Source: Sinomonas notoginsengisoli (GTDB lineage Bacteria; Actinomycetota; Actinomycetes; Actinomycetales; Micrococcaceae). Taken from it: a stretch of 64,000 nt of DNA. Position 1 is the stretch's first letter; each line of letters starts with the position of its first letter. Of this stretch, positions 191-12,551 are shown in pieces. The stretch is from NCBI RefSeq assembly GCF_021554725.1, contig NZ_JAIZDP010000001.1, forward strand, positions 620,001 to 684,000, in the 5' to 3' direction. A program made the translations under genes and the position numbers. Below the pieces are notes generated by a model. It was given only the letters and a program-made list of their open reading frames with translations, was not told where the DNA came from and made no database searches.

Positions 191-661
191 TCAGCCTCTC
201 GCTGCGGCCTCGAGCAGCGGCAGGGTACGTCCCTCGAAATGAGTGTTGAGGACAATCACGGAGGATGAGCGCACCACGGCCCGGGTGGCAGTGACGGCGT
301 CCAGGACGCGCTGGAGGTCCGAGTTCGAGCGGGCCGCGACCCGCGCCATGAGGTCGCTGTCCCCAGAAACGGTATGCACCTCGAGCACCTCGGGGATTCG
401 TGCGAGCGCCGTGGCGACTGCATCGTGCCCCAGGTCCTGGTTGATGGTCAGGAAGCAGAAGGCCAGGACAGGGAACCCGAACGCCTGAGGCTGGGCGTGC
501 GGCGCCCAATGCCCGATGACGCCACTGGCGACCATGCGGTCGAGCCGGGCCTGGACGGTCGCCCGGGCCACCTTGAGGATCCGAGACGCCTCGAGCACGT
601 TCATGCGCTGCTCGTCGGTGAACAGACGAATGATCCTGGCGTCGAGCTCATCGACCTTCAT
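191..661 (-). CDS. Lrp/AsnC family transcriptional regulator
   Basis: 156 aa. Residues 4-50 form the AsnC-type winged HTH and residues about 65-145 the ligand-binding RAM domain, with the conserved GDSDLM at 100-105. The ATG at 661 follows GGAGGA at good spacing, so I prefer it to an upstream start at 724. It is transcribed away from the amino-acid permease at 896, and a 2-oxoacid dehydrogenase operon follows that. In this family such an arrangement suggests an amino-acid-responsive regulator of the neighbouring transport and keto-acid oxidation genes (inference). Palindromes at 718-734 and 771-783 in the divergent gap could be its sites. Confidence 0.88.
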   Translation of the reverse strand: MKVDELDARIIRLFTDEQRMNVLEASRILKVARATVQARLDRMVASGVIGHWAPHAQPQAFGFPVLAFCFLTINQDLGHDAVATALARIPEVLEVHTVSGDSDLMARVAARSNSDLQRVLDAVTATRAVVRSSSVIVLNTHFEGRTLPLLEAAARG

Positions 662-717
662 GCGTTCCTCCAGATGCTGGCAAGGGGTACCCCGAATGCT
701 ACAGATTGATGACCGGC

Positions 718-783
718 TGCGCATGCACTGCGCATTCTGTCAACTGCAGCAGGGTCCAATGAGCGGATACTGCACAGTGTGCA
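718..783. promoter_or_regulatory. Divergent lrp/permease control region with palindromes
   Basis: The 234-base gap between lrp and the permease contains TGCGCA repeated at 718-723 and 729-734. It also contains a perfect 13-bp palindrome, TGCACA-G-TGTGCA, at 771-783. A minus-strand TTGACA lies at 738-743. Lrp-type regulators commonly bind arrays of 13-15 bp palindromes, so these are candidate autoregulatory and operator sites. No convincing -10 box was located. Confidence 0.35.
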
Positions 784-895: not shown

Positions 896-2314
896 ATGAC
901 AGCTATGCACACGTCAGATGGCCTCGCCACCTCGTCGAAGACGACGCAGGAACCGAGGCTGGGACACTCCATGTCGCCCCGCCAGCTCACGATGATGGGG
1001 CTCGGCAGCGCGATCGGAGCCGGCCTCTTCATCGGCTCCGGAGCAGGGATCCAGGCAGCCGGACCCGCAGTCCTCATCTCCTACCTCGTCGCAGGCACCC
1101 TCATCATCATCGTGATGTGGGCCCTCGGCGAGATGGCTGCCGCGAACCCGAACAGCGGCGCCTTCTCGGTGTACACCGGCAAGGCGCTCGGCCCAGTGGC
1201 AGGCGCGACCATCGGCTGGCTGTGGTGGGCCCAGCTCGTGGTTGTGATCGCCGCTGAGGCGCTCGGCGCAGCCGGTCTCCTGGCCACAGTCTTCCCCATG
1301 CTGCCGGTATGGCTCATGGCCCTGATCTTCATGGGCTTCTTCACGGCAGTGAACCTCACGGGCGTGCGGAACTTCGGCGAGTTCGAGTTCTGGTTCGCCC
1401 TGCTCAAGGTCGCAGCGATCGTCGCCTTCCTCCTTGTCGGTGCCGCCCTGCTCCTCGGCTGGATCCCCAATGCCTCCTCCCCCGGCCTGAGCCACTTCGC
1501 CATCGACAGCGGTTTCGCACCCAACGGCATGGCGGGTATTGCCACAGGCCTGTTCGTCGTGGCCTTCGCCTTTGGCGGCACCGAGATTGTCTCGGTTGCT
1601 GCAGCCGAGACGCGAGACCCCGAGCGCAGCGTAGGCCGTGCGGTCCGCACGGTCGTGTGGCGCATCATGGTCTTCTATGTGGGCTCCATCTTCGTGATCG
1701 CGGCCGTGATCCCGTGGAACTCTCCCGAATTGAAGAGCCCGTTCGCCGGCGTCCTCGACATGGCAGGCCTTCCCGGCGCCGCGACCGTCATCACCCTCGT
1801 GGCCGTCGTTGCCCTGCTCTCGGCTCTCAACGCCAACCTCTACGGCGCCTCGCGCATGATCTTCTCCCTCGCCGAGCGCCAGGAGGCCCCACGCGCCCTC
1901 AAGGCGCTGACCGGTGCCAGGGTTCCCGCACTCGCCGTCGCAGCGTCGGTCGCGTTCGGCTTCATCGCCACCGTCCTCGAGCTGCTGTTCCCGGACCACG
2001 TCCTGCCGCTCCTGCTCAATTTCGTGGGCTCCACGTGCCTCGTCGTCTGGGGCTCGGCCCTCGTCTCCCAGATCATCCTCCGCCGCAGGGCGGACGCCGC
2101 CGGCACGCGGCTGCCCCTCCGGATGGCCGGATTCCCGTGGCTCTCGGGGTTCGGAGTCCTGCTCCTCGCGGCGACCTTCGCCGTGGGCCTTGCGGGTGCC
2201 GACAGCCGCACGCAGCTGTTGAGCACCTTCGCCCTCGTGGCCGTTATTGCGGGCGGGTCGTGGCTGCGCCGACGCTCACTTGCGAACCAGCCGGCAGGGC
2301 CAGCACGCGGCTGA
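896..2314 (+). CDS. Amino-acid permease (APC superfamily, AAT/GABA permease type)
   Basis: 472 aa from ATG 896; an in-frame ATG at 905 is an alternative. About 12 hydrophobic segments are visible. The N-terminal consensus GLGSAIGAGLFIGSG (35-49) is the substrate-binding unwound helix of APC amino-acid transporters. It probably imports an amino acid by proton symport at the cytoplasmic membrane. It is divergent from the Lrp gene and upstream of the 2-oxoacid dehydrogenase operon. This suggests uptake of an amino acid whose keto acid is oxidised by that complex (inference). Substrate specificity cannot be read from the sequence. Confidence 0.9.
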   Translation: MTAMHTSDGLATSSKTTQEPRLGHSMSPRQLTMMGLGSAIGAGLFIGSGAGIQAAGPAVLISYLVAGTLIIIVMWALGEMAAANPNSGAFSVYTGKALGPVAGATIGWLWWAQLVVVIAAEALGAAGLLATVFPMLPVWLMALIFMGFFTAVNLTGVRNFGEFEFWFALLKVAAIVAFLLVGAALLLGWIPNASSPGLSHFAIDSGFAPNGMAGIATGLFVVAFAFGGTEIVSVAAAETRDPERSVGRAVRTVVWRIMVFYVGSIFVIAAVIPWNSPELKSPFAGVLDMAGLPGAATVITLVAVVALLSALNANLYGASRMIFSLAERQEAPRALKALTGARVPALAVAASVAFGFIATVLELLFPDHVLPLLLNFVGSTCLVVWGSALVSQIILRRRADAAGTRLPLRMAGFPWLSGFGVLLLAATFAVGLAGADSRTQLLSTFALVAVIAGGSWLRRRSLANQPAGPARG

Positions 2315-2539: not shown

Positions 2540-3673
2540 ATGCAGACTTCAGTACCTCCGAGGATGACGGTTGGCCGCGCCGGACGCGCCGGGGCACCCC
2601 CAAGGCCCGTCCCCGACCTGCCCGAGGCCGCCCGCGTGACAGGCGACGAGCTCCTGGAGCTCTACCGGCTCATGACGGCCGTGCGGCACCTCGACCAGGC
2701 GGCCATCGCCTGGCAGCGTCAGGGCATCCTGCCCGCCTACGCTCCCGAGCTCGGCCAAGAGGCCGCCCAGGTGGGCTCGGCCCTCGCGATGGACCTCTCC
2801 CGCGACTTCATCTTTCCCACGTACCGCGAGATGGGCGTGGCCCGGGCCGCAGGCGTGGACATGGTGCAGTACATGGCCACCCACCTCGCCACCTGGCACG
2901 GGGGTCTCTGGGATCCCACTGCAGCGCACGTCGCCCCGATCCAGGCCGTGGTGGGCGGTTCCGTACTGCACGCTGTGGGCTGGGCGCACGGCCAGACGCT
3001 CCAGGCCAGTTCCGTGGCTCTGGGCGCCGGCCCCGCAGCGCGTGCCCGGGACGGGCTGGCCGTGGCCCTCACGTACTTCGGAGACGGCGCCTCGAGCCAG
3101 GGCGACGTGCACGAGGCCATGAACTTCGCGGCTGTCTTCAAGGCGCCTGTCGTGTTCTTCGTCCAGAACAACGGCTGGGCCATCTCGGTGCCGACAGAAC
3201 GGCAGGTGGCCGGTGGGAGCGTCGCCGCCCGCGGAGCCGGCTACGGTATCCCGGCACTCCAGATCGACGGCAACGAGGCCGCCGCCGTGCTCGAGGCGGC
3301 CCGGCGCGCCGTCGCCCATGCCCGGGCGGGCCGCGGCCCCGTGATCGTCGAGGCCATGACCTACCGCCGCGGGCCGCATGCGACAAGCGACGACCCAGGT
3401 CGCTACCGCACGCTCGACGAGGAGCGAACCGACGGCGGCGCCGACCCGATCGCCCGGCTGCGCGAGCGCATCCTGGCGGCCGGCATCGCGGACGAGGCGA
3501 CGCTCGACGCCCGCGATGCCAAGGCCGCGGCGGAGGCCGAGGAGGTCCGCACCGGCGTCCTCTCCCTGGGGCCGCGCCCCGGCGCGGAGATGTTCGACCT
3601 CGTCTTCGACGAGCCCACTCACGAGCTACAGCGCCAGAAGAGCCAATGGCGCGAGGAGTCCGAACATGCCTGA
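2540..3673 (+). CDS. 2-oxoacid dehydrogenase E1 component, alpha subunit
   Basis: 377 aa. Thiamine-diphosphate-dependent E1 alpha that decarboxylates a 2-oxo acid and, with E1 beta, transfers the acyl group to lipoamide. The ThDP motif runs from GDG (about 181-183) to NN (about 210-211). The phosphorylation-loop region contains HATSDD (about 280-285), typical of branched-chain 2-oxoacid dehydrogenases rather than acetoin enzymes. I chose ATG 2540 because a leaderless promoter ends 6 bases upstream; a GTG at 2519 would add 7 residues. It overlaps E1 beta by 8 bases. The partner E2 is atypical (see 4732-5951), so substrate assignment is open. Confidence 0.9.
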   Translation: MQTSVPPRMTVGRAGRAGAPPRPVPDLPEAARVTGDELLELYRLMTAVRHLDQAAIAWQRQGILPAYAPELGQEAAQVGSALAMDLSRDFIFPTYREMGVARAAGVDMVQYMATHLATWHGGLWDPTAAHVAPIQAVVGGSVLHAVGWAHGQTLQASSVALGAGPAARARDGLAVALTYFGDGASSQGDVHEAMNFAAVFKAPVVFFVQNNGWAISVPTERQVAGGSVAARGAGYGIPALQIDGNEAAAVLEAARRAVAHARAGRGPVIVEAMTYRRGPHATSDDPGRYRTLDEERTDGGADPIARLRERILAAGIADEATLDARDAKAAAEAEEVRTGVLSLGPRPGAEMFDLVFDEPTHELQRQKSQWREESEHA

Positions 3674-4739
3674 GATCATCACCGACACCCGCGAGCTCTC
3701 CCTGCAGGGAGCCCTCAACCTCGCACTCGACGAGCTCCTCGCCGAGGATCCGAAGGTCCTGGTCCTTGGCGAGGATGTCGGCACCCTCGGCGGTGTCTTC
3801 CGCGTCACGAACGGGCTCGCCGTCGCGCACGGGGCTGAGCGCGTGTTCGACACGCCCCTGGCCGAGTCCGGCATCCTCGGCATGTCGATCGGCCTCGCCA
3901 TGGCCGGCTTCCGGCCCGTGCCCGAGGTCCAGTTCGACGGCTTCGCGTACCCCGCGATGAATCAGATCGTCACTCAGCTGGCCCGCATGCACTACCGCTC
4001 GCGCGGCACCATTCCCATGCCGGTCACCCTGCGCGTGCCGAGCTTCGGGGGGATCCGTGCCCCCGAGCACCACGGGGAGAGCCTCGAGGCCGTCTTCGCG
4101 CACGTGCCGGGCCTCAAGGTCGTCTCCCCCGCCGACCCGCAGCAGGGCTACACGCTGCTCAAGGCTGCGGTGCGCATGAACGATCCCGTCATGTTCATGG
4201 AGCCCAAGTCCCGCTACTGGCAGAAGGGCCCGGTGGTCACGGAGCTGGAGAGCGCCGACGCGGAGGCTAGGGGCGCGCACGACGGCGACGCCTCGCCGTC
4301 GGCCGCCGCCGCGCCCGAGGCGTGGAAGGCGACCGGGGCACGCGTCGCCCGACCGGGACGGCACCTCACCCTCGTCGCCTGGGGGGCCATGGTGGCCCGC
4401 TGCCTGCAGGTCGCCGAGCTCGCCGCCGAGGACGGCATCGACGTCGAGGTCCTCGACCTCCGCTGGCTCAAGCCGATCGATGCCGAGGCTCTGGCGACGT
4501 CCGTCGCCAAGACGCGCCGCGCCGTCGTCGTGCACGAGGCACCGCTCACCGCCGGCCTGGGCGCGGAAGTGGCCCAGCTCATCACCGAGCGCTGCTTCCG
4601 CACGCTCAAAGCGCCCGTCGAGCGCGTGACCGGCTTCGACGTGCCCTACCCGTCAGGCGACCTGGAGGACGAGTACATCCCGAATGTCGACCGCATCCTG
4701 TTCGGCATCCAGAGAGTATTGGAGTACAAGCGTGGCTGA
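3666..4739 (+). CDS. 2-oxoacid dehydrogenase E1 component, beta subunit
   Basis: 357 aa. Transketolase-like pyrimidine-binding domain (LGEDVG at 34-39, catalytic-region Glu at about 67, HH at 135-136) followed by the C-terminal transketolase domain from about residue 230. An Ala/Ser/Asp-rich insert at about 197-225 separates the two and is longer than usual. The ATG follows GAGGAG at 8 bases and overlaps the E1 alpha stop, so the subunits are translationally coupled. It completes the ThDP active site at the alpha/beta interface. Confidence 0.92.
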   Translation: MPEIITDTRELSLQGALNLALDELLAEDPKVLVLGEDVGTLGGVFRVTNGLAVAHGAERVFDTPLAESGILGMSIGLAMAGFRPVPEVQFDGFAYPAMNQIVTQLARMHYRSRGTIPMPVTLRVPSFGGIRAPEHHGESLEAVFAHVPGLKVVSPADPQQGYTLLKAAVRMNDPVMFMEPKSRYWQKGPVVTELESADAEARGAHDGDASPSAAAAPEAWKATGARVARPGRHLTLVAWGAMVARCLQVAELAAEDGIDVEVLDLRWLKPIDAEALATSVAKTRRAVVVHEAPLTAGLGAEVAQLITERCFRTLKAPVERVTGFDVPYPSGDLEDEYIPNVDRILFGIQRVLEYKRG

Positions 4740-5061
4740 GATTTCCTTCCCCCTCCCCGACCTCGGCGAAGGCCTCATCGAGGCCACCGTGCTCGACTGG
4801 CTCGTCGCCGAGGGCGACCAGGTCGAGCGCAACCAGCCGATGGTCGAGGTTGAGACCACCAAGTCCGCCCTCGAGCTGCCGTCACCGCAGGCAGGCGTCG
4901 TCAAGAAGGTGTACGGCGCGCCCGGCGAGGTCATCAAGGTCGGCGAGCCCCTCATCGTGTTCGAGGTCGCGGACGAAACGGCCGGGATCGTGGGCACGGT
5001 CCCCTCAGAGGGCACGCCGAAGCGGCGCGTGCGCCTGAACACCCCTCTGGACGAGGATTGA
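4732..5061 (+). CDS. Stand-alone lipoyl-domain protein (E2 without acyltransferase domain)
   Basis: 109 aa starting at a GTG that overlaps the E1 beta stop. Residues 3-80 form one biotinyl/lipoyl domain. The lipoylated Lys is at 44 in ETTKSAL, and the family signature DLGEG is at 10-14. After it come only about 29 residues, with no peripheral-subunit-binding domain and no CoA acyltransferase domain. A normal E2 is 400 aa or longer. The next gene is an alpha/beta hydrolase, so the pair resembles a split version of AcoC, the acetoin dehydrogenase E2, which is a lipoyl domain fused to an alpha/beta hydrolase (known family architecture). No E3 gene is present nearby. Confidence 0.88.
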   Translation: MAEISFPLPDLGEGLIEATVLDWLVAEGDQVERNQPMVEVETTKSALELPSPQAGVVKKVYGAPGEVIKVGEPLIVFEVADETAGIVGTVPSEGTPKRRVRLNTPLDED

Positions 5062-5951
5062 TGCAGGGGTCCACGCTGGACCTCGAAGGAGCACGCGGTG
5101 CGGCCGCGGTCGATGAGGAGATGGCGCACATGATGGCAGGGCAGCACGCGGGAACCGCGGTCCAGCACACAGTCGAAGGCACGGATCCGGGGCTCCACCT
5201 GGTCGTGGCCGAGCCCGAGTCCCCCGCCGCGCTCCCGCCCGTGCTCCTGATCCACGGATTCGCCTCCTCAGTGGCGCTCAACTGGGAGCAGAGCGGGTGG
5301 ATTTCAGCGCTGCTCGAGGCAGGGCGGCGCGTGATCGCCGTCGACCTTCCGGGCCACGGTGCGAGTGCGGCGCCCGAAGACGTCGACTCGTACACCCCGG
5401 GACGGATCCGAGCCGACCTCCTGCAGATCGTCACCGATGCGGGTGCGAGGCCGATCTCGGACATGCGGCGGGACAGCGGGCTCGACGTGATCGGGTACTC
5501 GCTCGGCTCGCGGCTCGCCTGGGAGTTCGGGGCAACCCAGCCCGCCCTCGTGCGGCGCCTCGTGCTCGGGGGCCCGTCGAGCCGTGACCCACTCGCGGAG
5601 TTCGACCTCCCGGCCGCCCAGCGGTTCCTCGCCGATGGGACGCCGGTCGAGGACGCCTCCACGGCCAATCTGGTGGCCATAGCGCAGGCTTCCCCCGCGT
5701 CCGACATGTACGCGCTCCTCTCGCTCGTGGAGGGCATCAAGGAGGAGCCGTTCGATGCGGCCGAGGCGGTGCCCCTTCAGCCGGTCCTCATGGTCGCGGG
5801 CGAGAAGGACGAGCGCGTCGCCGCCCTCGAGGTCCTGAAGGGCCTCGCCCCCTCCGCCGAGGTCCTCGTGGTCCCCGGGCGCAATCACGTCAATGTGGTC
5901 ACGGCGCGGGCGTTCAAACAGGCTGCGATCGATTTCCTCGCCCGGCCCTGA
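5061..5951 (+). CDS. Alpha/beta-fold hydrolase, AcoC C-terminal-domain-like
   Basis: 296 aa. Oxyanion HG at 65-66, nucleophile Ser147 in GYSLGS, acid Asp250 (GEKDERV) and His276 (GRNHVN) form a complete triad. The ATG at 5061 sits one base inside the stop of the lipoyl gene, with GAGGA upstream, so it is translationally coupled. By analogy with AcoC it could accept or release the acyl group from the lipoyl carrier (inference). A general esterase role is also possible. Confidence 0.8.
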   Translation: MQGSTLDLEGARGAAAVDEEMAHMMAGQHAGTAVQHTVEGTDPGLHLVVAEPESPAALPPVLLIHGFASSVALNWEQSGWISALLEAGRRVIAVDLPGHGASAAPEDVDSYTPGRIRADLLQIVTDAGARPISDMRRDSGLDVIGYSLGSRLAWEFGATQPALVRRLVLGGPSSRDPLAEFDLPAAQRFLADGTPVEDASTANLVAIAQASPASDMYALLSLVEGIKEEPFDAAEAVPLQPVLMVAGEKDERVAALEVLKGLAPSAEVLVVPGRNHVNVVTARAFKQAAIDFLARP

Positions 5952-6652: not shown

Positions 6653-8236
6653 GTGGAGCGAGCAGAACAGCGTGAGCAGCTGCGTCAGGACACCATCAGC
6701 GGCGCCGGCAAGGTCATCGCCGTCCACTTGAACTACCCCAGCCGCGCCGCCCAGCGCGGACGCACTCCCGCAGTGCCGTCCTACTTCCTCAAGCCCGCGA
6801 CCTCGCTCGCACTGAACGGCGCCAAGCTCGAGCGTCCGCAGGGCGTCGAGCTCGTCACAGTCGAGGGCGAAGTCGCCCTCGTGATGGGCGCCGACGCCCG
6901 CAACGTCTCCCCTGAGCACGCCTGGGCGCACGTGGGCTACGTCACCGCGGCAAACGACGCTGGCCTGGCCGACCTGCGCTGGCCGGACAAGGGCTCCAAC
7001 CTGCGCTCGAAGGGCGGCGACGGAATCGCACCGATCGGGCCGGCCCTGCTGCCCGCACAGGAGGTGGACCCGGCCGGTCTCCGCGTGAGGATGTGGATCA
7101 ACGGCAAGCTCATCCAGGAGGACTGGACCTCGACCCTCATCTTCCCATTCACCCAGCTCATCGCCGATCTATCCCGCCTCATGACCCTCGAGGCCGGCGA
7201 CGTGATCCTCACCGGCACCCCGGCCGGCGCCACGGTCGCCGAGCCGGGAGACGTCGTGGAGATCGAGGTCGACGGCGCAACGCTCGGGGGAGCAGGGCAC
7301 GACGGCGCAACGCTCACCACCGGGCGGCTCACCAACACCGTGGTTGACTCCTCGCTCGTCCTCGAGCCTTACGGAGCCCTGCCCAAGCTGACCGACGCGG
7401 ACCGCATCGACGCGTGGGGTTCCGCCGAGGCCGCTGGAATCGCCTCCGGGGAGGGTGCAGCGGAAGGCGAGGCGGCGCCGTCGTCCGCCGAGGACTCCCG
7501 CCCGGCAAGCGTCCTCACCCCCGAGCTCACCGAGAAGCTCAAGAGCGTGGGCACCGCGACCCTGAGCGTGCAGATGCGCAAGCGCGGCATCCAGAACTGC
7601 CACATTGAGGGACTTACCCCGACCAAGCCGGGCGCCCAGGTGGTCGGAACCGCCCGGACCCTGCGGTACATCCCCGCACGCGAAGACCTCTTCAAGCAGT
7701 TCGGCGGCGGCTACAACGCGCAGAAGCGTGCCGTGGACTCCCTCCGCCCGGGCGACATCCTCGTCATGGACGCCCGCGGCGAGAAAGGCACCGGCACGCT
7801 CGGCGACGTGCTCGCGCTCCGGGCCCAGGTGCTGGGAGCCGCGGCCGTGATCACCGACGGCGGCATCCGCGACTTCGGCCCCGTCTCGGGGATGGACATC
7901 CCCGCATGGGGCGCCAACCCGCATCCAGCGGTCCTCGGCCGCCGGCACGTGCCGTGGAGCGTCGACGACACCGTCGCGTGCGGCGGTGCTGCCGTGGTGC
8001 CTGGCGATGTGATCGTGGGCGACGAGGACGGACTCGTGGTCATCCCTCCCTCGCTCGTCGAGGAGATCGCAGACGACGCCATCTCCCAGGAGCGCATGGA
8101 GGCCTGGGTCGCGGACCGGGTCATGGAGGGGCACGCCGTTGACGGGCTGTTCCCCATGAATGCCCAATGGCGCGCGAAGTACGAGGAGTACCTCGCGGGC
8201 CAGGCGCAGCGTCAGACGGGCGCCGACCAGTCATGA
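6653..8236 (+). CDS. Fusion of fumarylacetoacetate-hydrolase-family and RraA-like domains
   Basis: 527 aa. Residues about 15-235 are an FAH-fold domain like HpaG/HpcE, with metal-ligand candidates E71, E73 and D102 and the motif ILTGTPAG at 185-192. An Ala/Glu/Ser linker follows (about 255-285). Residues about 290-515 are RraA-like, with TDGGIRD at 401-407 including the active-site Arg-Asp. In this pathway HpaG decarboxylates and isomerises 5-oxopent-3-ene-1,2,5-tricarboxylate, usually with two FAH repeats. Here the second repeat is replaced by an RraA fold, a family with known oxaloacetate decarboxylase and aldolase members. GTG start after GAGGGA. First gene of the hpa operon. Confidence 0.88.
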   Translation: MERAEQREQLRQDTISGAGKVIAVHLNYPSRAAQRGRTPAVPSYFLKPATSLALNGAKLERPQGVELVTVEGEVALVMGADARNVSPEHAWAHVGYVTAANDAGLADLRWPDKGSNLRSKGGDGIAPIGPALLPAQEVDPAGLRVRMWINGKLIQEDWTSTLIFPFTQLIADLSRLMTLEAGDVILTGTPAGATVAEPGDVVEIEVDGATLGGAGHDGATLTTGRLTNTVVDSSLVLEPYGALPKLTDADRIDAWGSAEAAGIASGEGAAEGEAAPSSAEDSRPASVLTPELTEKLKSVGTATLSVQMRKRGIQNCHIEGLTPTKPGAQVVGTARTLRYIPAREDLFKQFGGGYNAQKRAVDSLRPGDILVMDARGEKGTGTLGDVLALRAQVLGAAAVITDGGIRDFGPVSGMDIPAWGANPHPAVLGRRHVPWSVDDTVACGGAAVVPGDVIVGDEDGLVVIPPSLVEEIADDAISQERMEAWVADRVMEGHAVDGLFPMNAQWRAKYEEYLAGQAQRQTGADQS

Positions 8237-8997: not shown

Positions 8998-10551
8998 GTG
9001 AGCAACCACACCGTTCCTCAGGACCTCCCGGCCCGTATCCAGCACTACATCGACGGCGAGTTCGTGGACTCGGTCGACGGCGACACGTTCGACGTGCTCG
9101 AGCCCGTGACCAACGAGGTGTATGTCAAGGCCGCCGCCGGCAAGAAGGCCGACATCGAGCTCGCCGTCGCTGCCGCCAAGCGCGCGTTCGACGAAGGCCC
9201 TTGGCCGAAGATGCTCCCCCGTGAGCGCTCCCGCGTGCTGCACCGGATCGCCGACATCGTTGAGTCCCGGGACGCGCGCCTGGCCGAACTGGAGTCCTTC
9301 GACTCCGGCCTTCCGATCACCCAGGCGCTCGGCCAGGCCCGCCGCGCGGCTGAGAACTTCCGCTTCTTCGCGGATCTGATCGTGGCCCAGGCGGATGACA
9401 CGTTCAAGGTGCCCGGCCGCCAGATCAACTACGTGAACCGCAAGCCGATCGGTGTCGCGGGCCTCATCACCCCATGGAACACACCGTTCATGCTCGAGTC
9501 CTGGAAGCTCGGCCCGGCACTCGCCACGGGCAACACCGTGGTGCTCAAGCCAGCCGAGTTCACCCCGCTGTCCGCTTCCCTGTGGGCGGGGATCTTCGAG
9601 GAGGCGGGCCTCCCCCGCGGCGTGTTCAACCTCGTGAACGGTCTCGGCGAGGACGCCGGCGACGCGCTCGTCAAGCATCCCGGCGTGCCGCTGATCTCCT
9701 TCACTGGCGAGAGCCGCACCGGTCAGATCATCTTCGGCAACGCGGCCCCGTACCTCAAGGGCCTGTCGATGGAGCTCGGCGGCAAGAGCCCCGCCATCGT
9801 ATTCGCGGACGCGGACCTCGATGCGGCGATCGACGCAACGATCTTCGGGGTCTTCTCCCTCAATGGCGAGCGCTGCACGGCCGGAAGCCGCATCCTGGTC
9901 CAGCGCGACATCTACGACGAGTTCGTAGAGCGCTACGCCGCCCAGGCCAAGCGCGTCAAGGTCGGCTACCCGCACGATCCCGAGACCGAGGTCGGCTCGC
10001 TCGTGCACCCCGAGCACTTCGAGAAGGTCATGGGCTACGTCGAGGTCGGCAAGAACGAGGGACGCCTCGTTGCCGGCGGCGGCCAGCCGGAGGGCTTCGA
10101 GTTCGGCAACTTCGTGGCGCCGACCGTTTTCGCGGACGTCAAGCCGGATGCCCGCATCTTCCAGGAGGAGATCTTCGGCCCCGTCGTGGCGATCACGCCA
10201 TTCGACTCCGATGAGGAGGCCCTCGATCTCGCCAACAACACCAAGTACGGCCTCGCCGCGTACGTGTGGACCTCCGACCTCAAGCGCGCGCACAACTTCG
10301 CGCAGTCCGTGGAGGCAGGCATGGTCTGGCTCAACTCGAACAACGTGCGCGATCTCCGCACCCCGTTCGGTGGCGTGAAGGCCTCGGGACTCGGGCACGA
10401 GGGCGGCTACCGCTCGATCGACTTCTACACCGACCAGCAGGCCGTGCACATCACGCTCGGCAAGGTGCACAACCCCACCTTCGGCAAGGCCCAGGAGGCC
10501 GAGGCCGAGACCCATGCGCCGACCGACCTCGACGACCCGGACCCCCGCTGA
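8998..10551 (+). CDS. hpaE: 5-carboxymethyl-2-hydroxymuconate semialdehyde dehydrogenase
   Basis: 517 aa. NAD-dependent aldehyde dehydrogenase that oxidises the HpaD ring-cleavage product. Catalytic Cys293 (NGERCTAGS), general-base Glu259 (MELGGKSP) and oxyanion Asn161 (PWNTPF) are intact. Length and the FTGESRTGQ segment fit HpaE. The GTG start follows GAAGGA at about 8 bases. It lies 57 bases after the GntR gene and 44 before hpaD. The C-terminal 20 residues are acidic and unconserved in appearance. Confidence 0.93.
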   Translation: MSNHTVPQDLPARIQHYIDGEFVDSVDGDTFDVLEPVTNEVYVKAAAGKKADIELAVAAAKRAFDEGPWPKMLPRERSRVLHRIADIVESRDARLAELESFDSGLPITQALGQARRAAENFRFFADLIVAQADDTFKVPGRQINYVNRKPIGVAGLITPWNTPFMLESWKLGPALATGNTVVLKPAEFTPLSASLWAGIFEEAGLPRGVFNLVNGLGEDAGDALVKHPGVPLISFTGESRTGQIIFGNAAPYLKGLSMELGGKSPAIVFADADLDAAIDATIFGVFSLNGERCTAGSRILVQRDIYDEFVERYAAQAKRVKVGYPHDPETEVGSLVHPEHFEKVMGYVEVGKNEGRLVAGGGQPEGFEFGNFVAPTVFADVKPDARIFQEEIFGPVVAITPFDSDEEALDLANNTKYGLAAYVWTSDLKRAHNFAQSVEAGMVWLNSNNVRDLRTPFGGVKASGLGHEGGYRSIDFYTDQQAVHITLGKVHNPTFGKAQEAEAETHAPTDLDDPDPR

Positions 10552-10595
10552 ACCGGCCCCACCGCCCCGCACCACCAGAAAGCAAGGACGCTGCC

Positions 10596-11762
10596 ATGAC
10601 CAACCGTGAAGACATGACCCTCACTTCCTCCGGGTTCTACGTGTCCCAGGAGGCCCCCATCAAAGCCGACAACCCGGTGCCGACTCCGTCGGTCCCGGCG
10701 CCGGACATCCTGCGCTGCGCCTACATGGAGCTCGTGGTCACGGACCTGTTGCGCTCGCGCGACTTCTACGTCGACGTGCTCGGCCTCACCGTGACCGAGG
10801 AGGACGAGAACGCCGTCTACCTGCGCTCGCTCGAGGAGTTCATCCACCACAACCTCGTGCTGCGCCAGGGCCCCGTCGCCGCCGTCGCCGCCTTCTCCTA
10901 CCGGGTTCGCACCCCCGAGGACCTGGACAAGGCCGTCGCGTTCTACACCGAGCTCGGCTGCCGGGTGGAGCGCCGCAAGGATGGCTTCACCAAGGGCATC
11001 GGCGAGTCGGTGCGCGTGACCGATCCGCTCGGCTTCCCGTACGAGTTCTTTTATGACGTCGAGCACGTCGAGCGCCTCGCGTGGCGCTACGACCTGTACA
11101 CCCCCGGCGCCCTCGTACGCCTCGACCATTTCAACCAGGTCACCCCGGACGTCCCGCGTGCCACGAAATTCATGCAGGACCTCGGCTTCCGCGTCACCGA
11201 GGACATCCAGGACCAGGAGGGCACGGTCTACGCCGCGTGGATGCGCCGCAAGCCCACCGTCCACGACACTGCGATGACCGGTGGCAACGGCCCCCGCATG
11301 CACCACGTCGCGTTCTCGACGCACGAGAAGCACAACATCCTCGCGATCTGCGACAAGCTCGGAGCGCTGCGCATGTCCGATGCGATCGAGCGCGGACCCG
11401 GCCGCCACGGCGTCTCGAACGCGTTCTACCTCTACCTGCGCGACCCGGACGGCCACCGCGTCGAGATCTACACCCAGGACTACTACACGGGCGATCCTGA
11501 CAATCCCGTCGTCACGTGGGACGTCCATGACAACCAGCGCCGCGACTGGTGGGGCAACCCGGTGGTCCCGTCCTGGTACACCGAGGCCTCGCTGGTCCTG
11601 GACCTCGACGGCAACCCGCAGCCCGTCGTCGAGCGCACCGAGGCCTCCGAGATGGCAGTGACCATCGGCGCCGACGGGTTCTCCTACACCCGGGCAGACG
11701 ACGAGTCCGGCTCGTACCGCGGCGAGGCCTCGAAGGGCTTCAAAATCGGCCACCAGCTCTGA
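10596..11762 (+). CDS. hpaD: 3,4-dihydroxyphenylacetate (homoprotocatechuate) 2,3-dioxygenase
   Basis: 388 aa. Extradiol dioxygenase of the vicinal-oxygen-chelate type, opening homoprotocatechuate to 5-carboxymethyl-2-hydroxymuconate semialdehyde. Metal ligands are His178 (RLDHFN), His237 (MHHVAF) and Glu290 (HRVEIYTQ). Their spacing of 59 and 53 residues equals that of the Brevibacterium fuscum enzyme (H155, H214, E267). Arthrobacter has a Mn-dependent homologue (MndD), so the metal may be Mn or Fe. An extra N-terminal segment of about 20 residues is present. AAGGA precedes the ATG. Confidence 0.95.
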   Translation: MTNREDMTLTSSGFYVSQEAPIKADNPVPTPSVPAPDILRCAYMELVVTDLLRSRDFYVDVLGLTVTEEDENAVYLRSLEEFIHHNLVLRQGPVAAVAAFSYRVRTPEDLDKAVAFYTELGCRVERRKDGFTKGIGESVRVTDPLGFPYEFFYDVEHVERLAWRYDLYTPGALVRLDHFNQVTPDVPRATKFMQDLGFRVTEDIQDQEGTVYAAWMRRKPTVHDTAMTGGNGPRMHHVAFSTHEKHNILAICDKLGALRMSDAIERGPGRHGVSNAFYLYLRDPDGHRVEIYTQDYYTGDPDNPVVTWDVHDNQRRDWWGNPVVPSWYTEASLVLDLDGNPQPVVERTEASEMAVTIGADGFSYTRADDESGSYRGEASKGFKIGHQL

Positions 11763-11765
11763 GCC

Positions 11766-12551
11766 ATGCTGAACAAGGAGACCATCGCGGCAATCGCCGA
11801 CGAACTCGTGGAGGCGGGGCGGACGCGCACGCCCGTCCCGCTCCTGCACACACGTTACGAGGGCATGGACGTCGAGGACTCGTACGCGGTCCAGAAGCTC
11901 TGGGCCAGCAGGCTCGAGGCCGAGGGGCGGCGGGTGGCCGGCCGCAAGATCGGACTGACGTCCAAGGCCATGCAGGCCGCCACCGGCATCAGCGAGCCGG
12001 ACTACGGCGTGATCTTCGACGACCAGGTCCTCGAGAACGGTGCCGTCGTCGAGTGGAAGCGCTACACGCACCCGCGCATCGAGGTGGAGCTCGCCTTCAA
12101 GCTCGGGCGCGACCTGAAAGGACCGGGCGTGACCATGTTCGACGTCCTGGACGCGACCCACTACGTGGTGCCCGCGCTCGAGATCCTAGACTCGCGGATC
12201 GAAATGGAGGGCCGCACGATCGTGGACACGATTTCGGACAACGCCGCGCTCGGCGCCATGGTGGTCGGCGGGCGCCCGGTGCGGCCGCACGATGTAGACC
12301 TCCGCTGGGTGTCCTCCCTCCTGTACCGCAACCAGGAAATCATCGAGACCGGCGTGGCGGCCGGTGTCCTCAACCACCCGGCAACCGGCGTGGCATGGCT
12401 CGCGGACAAGCTCGCCCAGCACGGGCAGGACCTGCGTGCAGGGGACCTCATCCTGGCGGGCTCGTTCACGCGGCCCATGTGGGTGTACGAGGGCGACACG
12501 GTGTTCGCGGACTACGGGCCTCTGGGGACAGTGACATGCCGTTTCGTCTAG
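11766..12551 (+). CDS. hpaH: 2-oxo-hept-4-ene-1,7-dioate hydratase
   Basis: 261 aa. FAH-related hydratase (MhpD/HpaH family) that adds water to the decarboxylated ring-cleavage product. Visible family features are GRKIGLTSKAMQ (about 57-68), the metal-site motif RIEVELAFKLG (about 102-112) and the C-terminal LAGSFTRPMWVYEGD. It starts 3 bases after the hpaD stop and overlaps hpaI by 16 bases, indicating tight coupling. Confidence 0.94.
   Translation: MLNKETIAAIADELVEAGRTRTPVPLLHTRYEGMDVEDSYAVQKLWASRLEAEGRRVAGRKIGLTSKAMQAATGISEPDYGVIFDDQVLENGAVVEWKRYTHPRIEVELAFKLGRDLKGPGVTMFDVLDATHYVVPALEILDSRIEMEGRTIVDTISDNAALGAMVVGGRPVRPHDVDLRWVSSLLYRNQEIIETGVAAGVLNHPATGVAWLADKLAQHGQDLRAGDLILAGSFTRPMWVYEGDTVFADYGPLGTVTCRFV

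Follow-up and report, generated by a model that had tools for sequence, protein, structure and literature searches.

How does a 2-oxo acid dehydrogenase dispose of its acyl group when neither an acyltransferase nor a lipoamide dehydrogenase is encoded beside it? The textbook enzyme is built from the components E1, E2 (acyltransferase) and E3 (lipoamide dehydrogenase); inside a large E2 core, its tethered lipoyl arm passes the acyl group on to coenzyme A (CoA). The question is raised by a four-gene operon (hereafter the module) in a stretch of 64,000 nucleotides (the window) from the 3.59 Mb genome of Sinomonas notoginsengisoli, whose nearest named relatives, judged by the hydrolase encoded in the module, are Sinomonas of the family Micrococcaceae. 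The module encodes both subunits of an E1, a free lipoyl carrier and an alpha/beta hydrolase. Comparison of the genomes sampled reveals that this E1 goes with the hydrolase, yet the hydrolase does not need E1.

All four frames of the operon (2540–5951) are open, lie on the forward strand and overlap each the next. The first gene (2540–3673) encodes the E1-alpha of a thiamine diphosphate (ThDP)-dependent 2-oxo acid dehydrogenase, with an E1_dh domain and a HATSDD loop at 3377–3394, and the second (3666–4739) encodes E1-beta with Transket_pyr and Transketolase_C domains. The third gene (4732–5061) begins with GTG and codes for a stand-alone lipoyl-domain protein of 109 amino acids with a full-length Biotin_lipoyl match, and the fourth (5061–5951) for an alpha/beta hydrolase of 296 amino acids with an Abhydrolase_1 domain and the triad Ser147-Asp250-His276 (domains were called with Pfam and NCBIfam models). 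The lipoyl protein and the hydrolase are thus the products of two genes with a stop between them, which share a single base, the A at 5061. Frames and motifs bear out the coordinates, the one-base overlap, the HATSDD loop and the intact Ser-Asp-His triad given by the initial annotation. The coupling that it read from the overlap is present here, but the exact overlap varies among relatives and only a tight spacing is kept in most loci.

The third gene product had been described as a lipoyl domain and nothing else, and this is what we find. The Biotin_lipoyl match spans residues 6–76 of 109 (profile positions 3–72 of 73) and is followed by a short tail; no second curated Pfam or NCBIfam domain scores above its cut-off, and none was found for anchoring or for acyl transfer. 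The lipoyl lysine codon lies at 4861–4863, within an ETTKS motif. In 74 homologues the lipoyl match reaches a stop after at most 114 residues, and 72 of the 74 retain the motif as ETTKS, ETSKS or ETAKS, while the two that do not are decayed copies in the E1-less loci L077 and L079. The features required of a lipoyl arm are thus all present in the carrier, and its lipoylation is predicted.

The domain search found neither a 2-oxoacid_dh (PF00198) domain nor an E3 in the module, in agreement with the earlier claim that a CoA acyltransferase and an E3 are lacking, and all five PF00198 matches of the genome are located outside it. Of the parts of a classical 2-oxo acid dehydrogenase complex, the locus therefore has the E1 domains and the lipoyl lysine motif and lacks the PF00198 E2. 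Complete complexes exist in the same genome, and the module is an additional E1 without an E2. Three other alpha/beta-type E1-alphas each lie about 3 kb or less from a PF00198 E2 (C23, C28 and C32), a long frame carries both domains (2-oxoglutarate type, by reading), and one more E2 has two lipoyl domains in front of it. Among 21 genomes from other families, G379 included, PF00198 is present within 6 kb of none of the 21 module E1s, versus 64 of the 68 other E1s; this count covers 89 alpha/beta-type E1-alphas scoring above 215 bits and omits 21 fused 2-oxoglutarate-type rows and 13 rows at or below 163 bits.

The E1 had been called branched-chain type, from its loop. Against solved relatives, E1-alpha scores 191.8 bits with the human branched-chain 2-oxo acid dehydrogenase (BCKDH) and 189 bits with a Gram-positive pyruvate dehydrogenase (PDH), and it reaches 375.4 against the model TIGR03181, under the cut-off of 411.35. 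The HxTxDD pattern is not special, as two further E1-alphas in the same genome carry GAHTTADDP. By these scores, the assignment stands at the level of the group that holds BCKDH and Gram-positive PDH and goes no finer. The loop reads GPH[SA]T[SA]DDPGRYR in 15 module E1-alphas versus GAHTT[AS]DDP in three paralogues, with six rows from the far family f24 and three paralogues giving no readable loop. In a tree that takes genome paralogues as its only references, the 21 rows of module E1-alphas cluster together (support 97/96) to the exclusion of six paralogues from two genomes; one of these, G353par_C23, has so long a branch that neighbouring joins may be false. The module thus shares with BCKDH and TIGR03181-type PDH the E1-alpha and E1-beta domains, the HxTxDD loop and a lipoyl carrier, but differs from them in having no PF00198 core and no E3 and in an E1-alpha that forms its own group with respect to the six paralogues.

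A search for the same four-gene order in other genomes had been proposed, and the order is found far beyond this genome. When 84,980 species genomes were scanned for the hydrolase, 183 relatives came up, and the best 80 among them were retained as named loci. The order E1-alpha, E1-beta, lipoyl protein, hydrolase is present in 57 of these 80 (the lipoyl match is short in L068); 22 have the hydrolase with no E1 in the stretch, and the contig of L038 is too short to judge. Upstream of the module, the window carries an APC/AAT-family permease (896–2314, forward strand; nearest NCBIfam model the gamma-aminobutyrate permease TIGR01773, 429.9 bits, under the cut-off of 678) and, divergent to the module, an Lrp/AsnC-family regulator (191–724, reverse strand) with AsnC_trans_reg and HTH_AsnC domains. 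The permease is matched upstream in all 57 named E1-bearing loci, at 2–4 kb from E1 in L064 and L087, and the Lrp gene in 56 of the 57, compared with none of the 22 named E1-less loci; one E1-less relative, L170, retains it.

In 149 Micrococcaceae genomes, searched for the hydrolase at an E-value of 1e-20 and for a module E1-alpha above 340 bits, the hydrolase is present in 101 and the E1-alpha in 51. The whole-genome search places a hydrolase within 4 kb of E1 in 49 of these 51, and in G013 and G067 local tblastn finds a more distant hydrolase (88–90 bits; GYSFG and GR[NT]H motifs) after the lipoyl gene, so that the hydrolase adjoins the module E1 in 51 of 51. Searching 394 genomes of the class for E1 at an E-value of 1e-86 identified 21 with a match: the window's own, G342 from another family of the order (f4), and 19 from f24. 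The hydrolase adjoins E1 in all 19 of the f24 genomes and in G342 (17 by whole-genome search; G397, G218 and G505 by local tblastn). A further f24 genome, G379, also has the module, but it was found via its hydrolase and is excluded from the pairing evidence. Far from being rarely conserved in this setting, the hydrolase lies beside E1 in every one of the 71 genomes that the E1 searches identified. Hydrolases of Micrococcaceae and f24 share only about 40% identity, which argues that the pairing is old. Each of the seven f24 loci inspected has an Lrp-like gene transcribed divergently from the module. Distant hydrolase relatives from f4 (about 35–44% identity) occur in varied surroundings in the loci displayed and were left out of the counts. 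Plasmid records hold no close relative: 98 have an E1-alpha match, all below 60% identity (best listed 44%), and 10 have a hydrolase match, the best at 35%. No publication on an operon of E1, free lipoyl protein and hydrolase was found among titles and abstract openings covering few subscription journals, which is a weak negative.

The pairing is one-sided. The genome-wide search finds no module E1 in 52 of the 101 hydrolase-bearing family genomes; in 30 of these 52 the hydrolase is 54–84% identical and in the rest it is more distant. Five of the 30 carry a flag for a single apparent stop within the match, and in the 28 E1-less loci examined the hydrolase is open and conserved. Permease and hydrolase stay together in 20 of the 22 named E1-less loci, and a nadA-like gene (named by reading) is located upstream in all 13 of the 22 whose gene order was read and also in the E1-bearing locus L030. 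Remnants of the lipoyl gene are visible between permease and hydrolase in L077 and L079, where it is broken, and in L085, where it has no 5' end; the cassette was therefore lost there. In G121, a relative of the same genus, E1-alpha, E1-beta and the lipoyl protein are unmatched in the 17 kb read and no module E1 occurs elsewhere in the genome, and the Lrp gene, permease, hydrolase and homoprotocatechuate genes are retained. A quick tree of the hydrolases implies nine or more changes in E1 state.

Retention of the hydrolase is accompanied by undiminished constraint. The median ratio of nonsynonymous to synonymous substitution rates (dN/dS), taken from pairs with dS of 0.1–1 among hydrolases above 180 bits, is 0.140 in E1-bearing genomes (874 pairs) and 0.147 in E1-less genomes (205 pairs), and the sole apparent inner stop in this set, in L096, is the natural end of the gene. 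The triad, identified by its motifs and by conservation, shows no variation across the 90 homologues above 180 bits (62 E1-bearing, 28 E1-less). Both measures leave out the f24 and g13 hydrolases, which score below 180 bits, and L038, which is too short; in the hydrolase alignment A1, f24 rows included, the triad is invariant in all 40 rows. The loss of E1 and lipoyl genes with the hydrolase kept under equal constraint argues that the hydrolase has a job beyond this E1.

Fold and Ser-Asp-His triad place the protein among the alpha/beta serine hydrolases. Its AlphaFold2 model has a mean predicted local distance difference test score (pLDDT) of 87.1, low over residues 1–39 and good from residue 40 on. 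Conservation is poor over the first 25–39 or so residues, which the model shows as disordered, and translation may in truth begin downstream of the start given here. Among the neighbours listed, the closest folds belong to esterases and an enol-lactonase (2xua_A, Z 26.2, 2.5 Å over 230 residues); a family missing from the lists may still be related.

The homoprotocatechuate genes follow downstream. A fused protein of fumarylacetoacetate hydrolase and RraA-like parts (6653–8236; PRK12764, 776.6 bits, above the cut-off of 444) lies between the hydrolase and a set of HpaE, HpaD and HpaH (8998–12551), all above their model cut-offs; together with a GntR-like gene (by reading) these form a neighbourhood for homoprotocatechuate meta cleavage. 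HpaD is present in 135 of the 149 family genomes, so its presence cannot discriminate and proximity was used instead. HpaD and the hydrolase are no more than 15 kb apart in 26 of 49 E1-bearing genomes (26 of 51 if G013 and G067 are counted, in which the hydrolase is on a different contig) and, among E1-less genomes, in 14 of 52. These cases span 11 coded genera; we estimate that chance would bring the two genes this close in about 1% of genomes (a 30 kb span out of roughly 4 Mb), and shared ancestry inflates the count.

What, then, may the module do? We tentatively favour an E2-less variant of the 2-oxo acid dehydrogenase, in which a free carrier is acylated and the hydrolase clears the acyl group, probably as free acid, while also serving a second role. 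E1-alpha and E1-beta with ThDP would decarboxylate a 2-oxo acid and reductively acylate the lipoyl-lysine of the small carrier, which would replace the tethered E2 arm. The hydrolase may then cleave the acyl-S-lipoyl thioester, most likely by water, to give a free carboxylic acid, and a lipoamide dehydrogenase encoded elsewhere would re-oxidise the carrier. The hydrolase is the only other enzyme that accompanies the carrier throughout. We infer its second role, on other acyl-lipoyl or small ester or thioester substrates outside the module, from its persistence where E1 and carrier have been lost. The same retention, without E1 or a whole lipoyl gene and at equal constraint, also weighs against this proposal, as the main substrate of the hydrolase need not be this carrier. 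Its closest folds, generic esterases and lactonases, are uninformative on lipoyl; other complete E2s are encoded in the same genome, and 4 of the 68 non-module E1s are likewise without a near E2.

In a fairly unlikely alternative, the hydrolase acts on its own as an esterase, lactonase or thioesterase and belongs with the permease and the homoprotocatechuate genes; E1 and carrier would merely be its neighbours and would deliver their acyl group to one of the genome's E2s or to some other acceptor. The esterase- or lactonase-like fold, the permease–hydrolase pairs that persist without E1, the proximity to HpaD in E1-less genomes and the repeated changes of E1 state all suit it. However, the pairing of E1 and lipoyl gene with the hydrolase holds in f24 and G342, where the permease is unmatched in the stretches examined, and it holds in every genome found by E1. 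The initial annotation had instead proposed an AcoC-like E2 split in two. AcoC, the E2 of acetoin dehydrogenase, serves its partner E1, and the module resembles it in having a lipoyl domain and an alpha/beta hydrolase that would serve an E1. The AcoC model (PRK14875/NF011457, 372 amino acids) matches the lipoyl protein with its first part (54.9 bits) and the hydrolase with its second (51.4 bits), and it is the best NCBIfam model of the hydrolase. The cut-off is 307, the MenH model ties at 50.9 bits, and although the hydrolase half of the AcoC model matches all 40 aligned hydrolases, the PcaD and MenH models do so too. With both scores far below the curated cut-off, and two genes where AcoC is one chain, the split-AcoC label describes appearance and not membership. 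Nor does a dedicated E2 fit a hydrolase that persists without the module E1, both in the E1-less loci and in about half of the family genomes that bear it. Since the model spans both proteins, an ancestral link or a CoA-transfer role is possible, in which the hydrolase-fold protein would be an acyltransferase from lipoyl carrier to CoA, with acyl-CoA as product. The f24 loci L154 and L157, where the module adjoins acyl-CoA carboxylase-like and AtuA-like genes (named by reading) acting on CoA esters, would agree with such a role; AcoC's own role rests on annotation, and our literature search found no in vitro account of it. We consider this transfer rather unlikely.

The chemistry of acyl-lipoyl cleavage has a precedent. 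According to passages of PMC12643935, the mammalian serine hydrolase ABHD11 strips glutaryl from a lipoylated E2 peptide in vitro, and passages of PMC7426941 likewise support it as an acyl-lipoyl thioesterase. If the reading that we favour is right, the likeness lies in a serine hydrolase acting on acyl-lipoyl and is one of chemistry only, with no claim of homology; 7c4d, the template of the ABHD11 model, matches the hydrolase profile weakly (E-value 7.5e-9) among many other hydrolases. Unlike the module hydrolase, ABHD11 is a repair enzyme of the full 2-oxoglutarate dehydrogenase (OGDH) complex. It is conceivable, but quite improbable, that the hydrolase likewise strips dead-end acyl groups from lipoyl proteins generally, with the module needing it most. 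This would explain both the strict pairing with an E2-less carrier and the retention after E1 loss. However, 48 of the 149 family genomes have no hydrolase match at an E-value of 1e-20 while 148 have some E1-alpha match at 1e-60, so the hydrolase is not generally needed. Another partial likeness is the phenylpyruvate dehydrogenase-like pair PglB/PglC of Streptomyces pristinaespiralis. In passages of PMC7089894 the two are the alpha and beta subunits of an E1 whose proposed substrate is an aryl 2-oxo acid, encoded in an operon with a thioesterase; the five-gene operon as given there names no lipoyl gene, and the thioesterase is proposed for a CoA ester.

The neighbourhood also bears on the substrate of the module. 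4-Hydroxyphenylpyruvate dioxygenase (HPPD; TIGR01263, E-value 1e-40) is matched in none of the 149 family genomes and in 1 of 14 control genomes. As HpaD is present in 135 of the same 149, tyrosine breakdown in Micrococcaceae, where present, should run via homoprotocatechuate, a pathway that works on free acids. HPPD as an alternative tyrosine route was considered and cannot separate E1-bearing from E1-less genomes, being absent from all. HpaB-type (PF03241) is unmatched in the window's genome, so the step after 4-hydroxyphenylacetate is also unplaced. Arthrobacter arilaitensis grows on tyrosine, and passages of PMC2991359 state that its authors could not locate genes for the 4-hydroxyphenylpyruvate oxidase, a step listed as EC 1.2.3.13 in the part of the review PMC9338888 that treats it; these passages of the two papers tie no sequence to the conversion of 4-hydroxyphenylpyruvate to 4-hydroxyphenylacetate. 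According to passages of PMC3534580, both tyrosine and 4-hydroxyphenylacetate support growth of strain Rue61a, which among sequenced strains is closest to TC-1, and the locus L060 of Paenarthrobacter aurescens TC1 carries the module. Homoprotocatechuate genes nearby, the absence of HPPD from the family genomes and an unlocated oxidase gene in a tyrosine-grower make 4-hydroxyphenylpyruvate a fair candidate substrate.

Patchy distribution of the module speaks against a universal tyrosine role: 86 of the 135 HpaD genomes have no module E1, and in Arthrobacter globiformis NBRC 12137 (L055) the hydrolase is present with no adjoining module at that locus. The f24 neighbours of the module include nucleoside-catabolism-like genes, which also counts against it. 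In several of the f24 loci L152–L158, the module stands beside a nucleoside-type ABC transporter and thymidine-phosphorylase-like genes (names by reading). With the acyl-CoA carboxylase-like neighbours of L154 and L157, a branched-chain acid as substrate would fit as well. We regard it as improbable that the module supplies the 4-hydroxyphenylpyruvate oxidase for which Arthrobacter-type tyrosine catabolism still lacks a gene, or a similar enzyme for another arylpyruvate, with the hydrolase as a true acyl-lipoyl thioesterase releasing free arylacetate into the homoprotocatechuate pathway. If so, a lipoyl-dependent oxidative decarboxylation would end in an acid and not in acyl-CoA.

The finding is real, conserved and unusual; of the facts that are new here, the strict pairing in both families and the loss in one direction only are the most useful. 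With just four proteins, the module should be easy to reconstitute and offers a system in which to study the action of an AcoC-type hydrolase. Should the hydrolase indeed clear acyl-lipoyl, its chemistry would make it a bacterial equivalent of ABHD11, the mammalian lipoyl thioesterase described only recently, and free acid would be a new outcome for the 2-oxo acid dehydrogenase class. The module is also one candidate for the tyrosine-pathway enzyme whose gene was reported as unlocated. Unlike the textbook E1-E2-E3 arrangement, a conserved lineage with no E2 core in the locus keeps a free carrier and a hydrolase.

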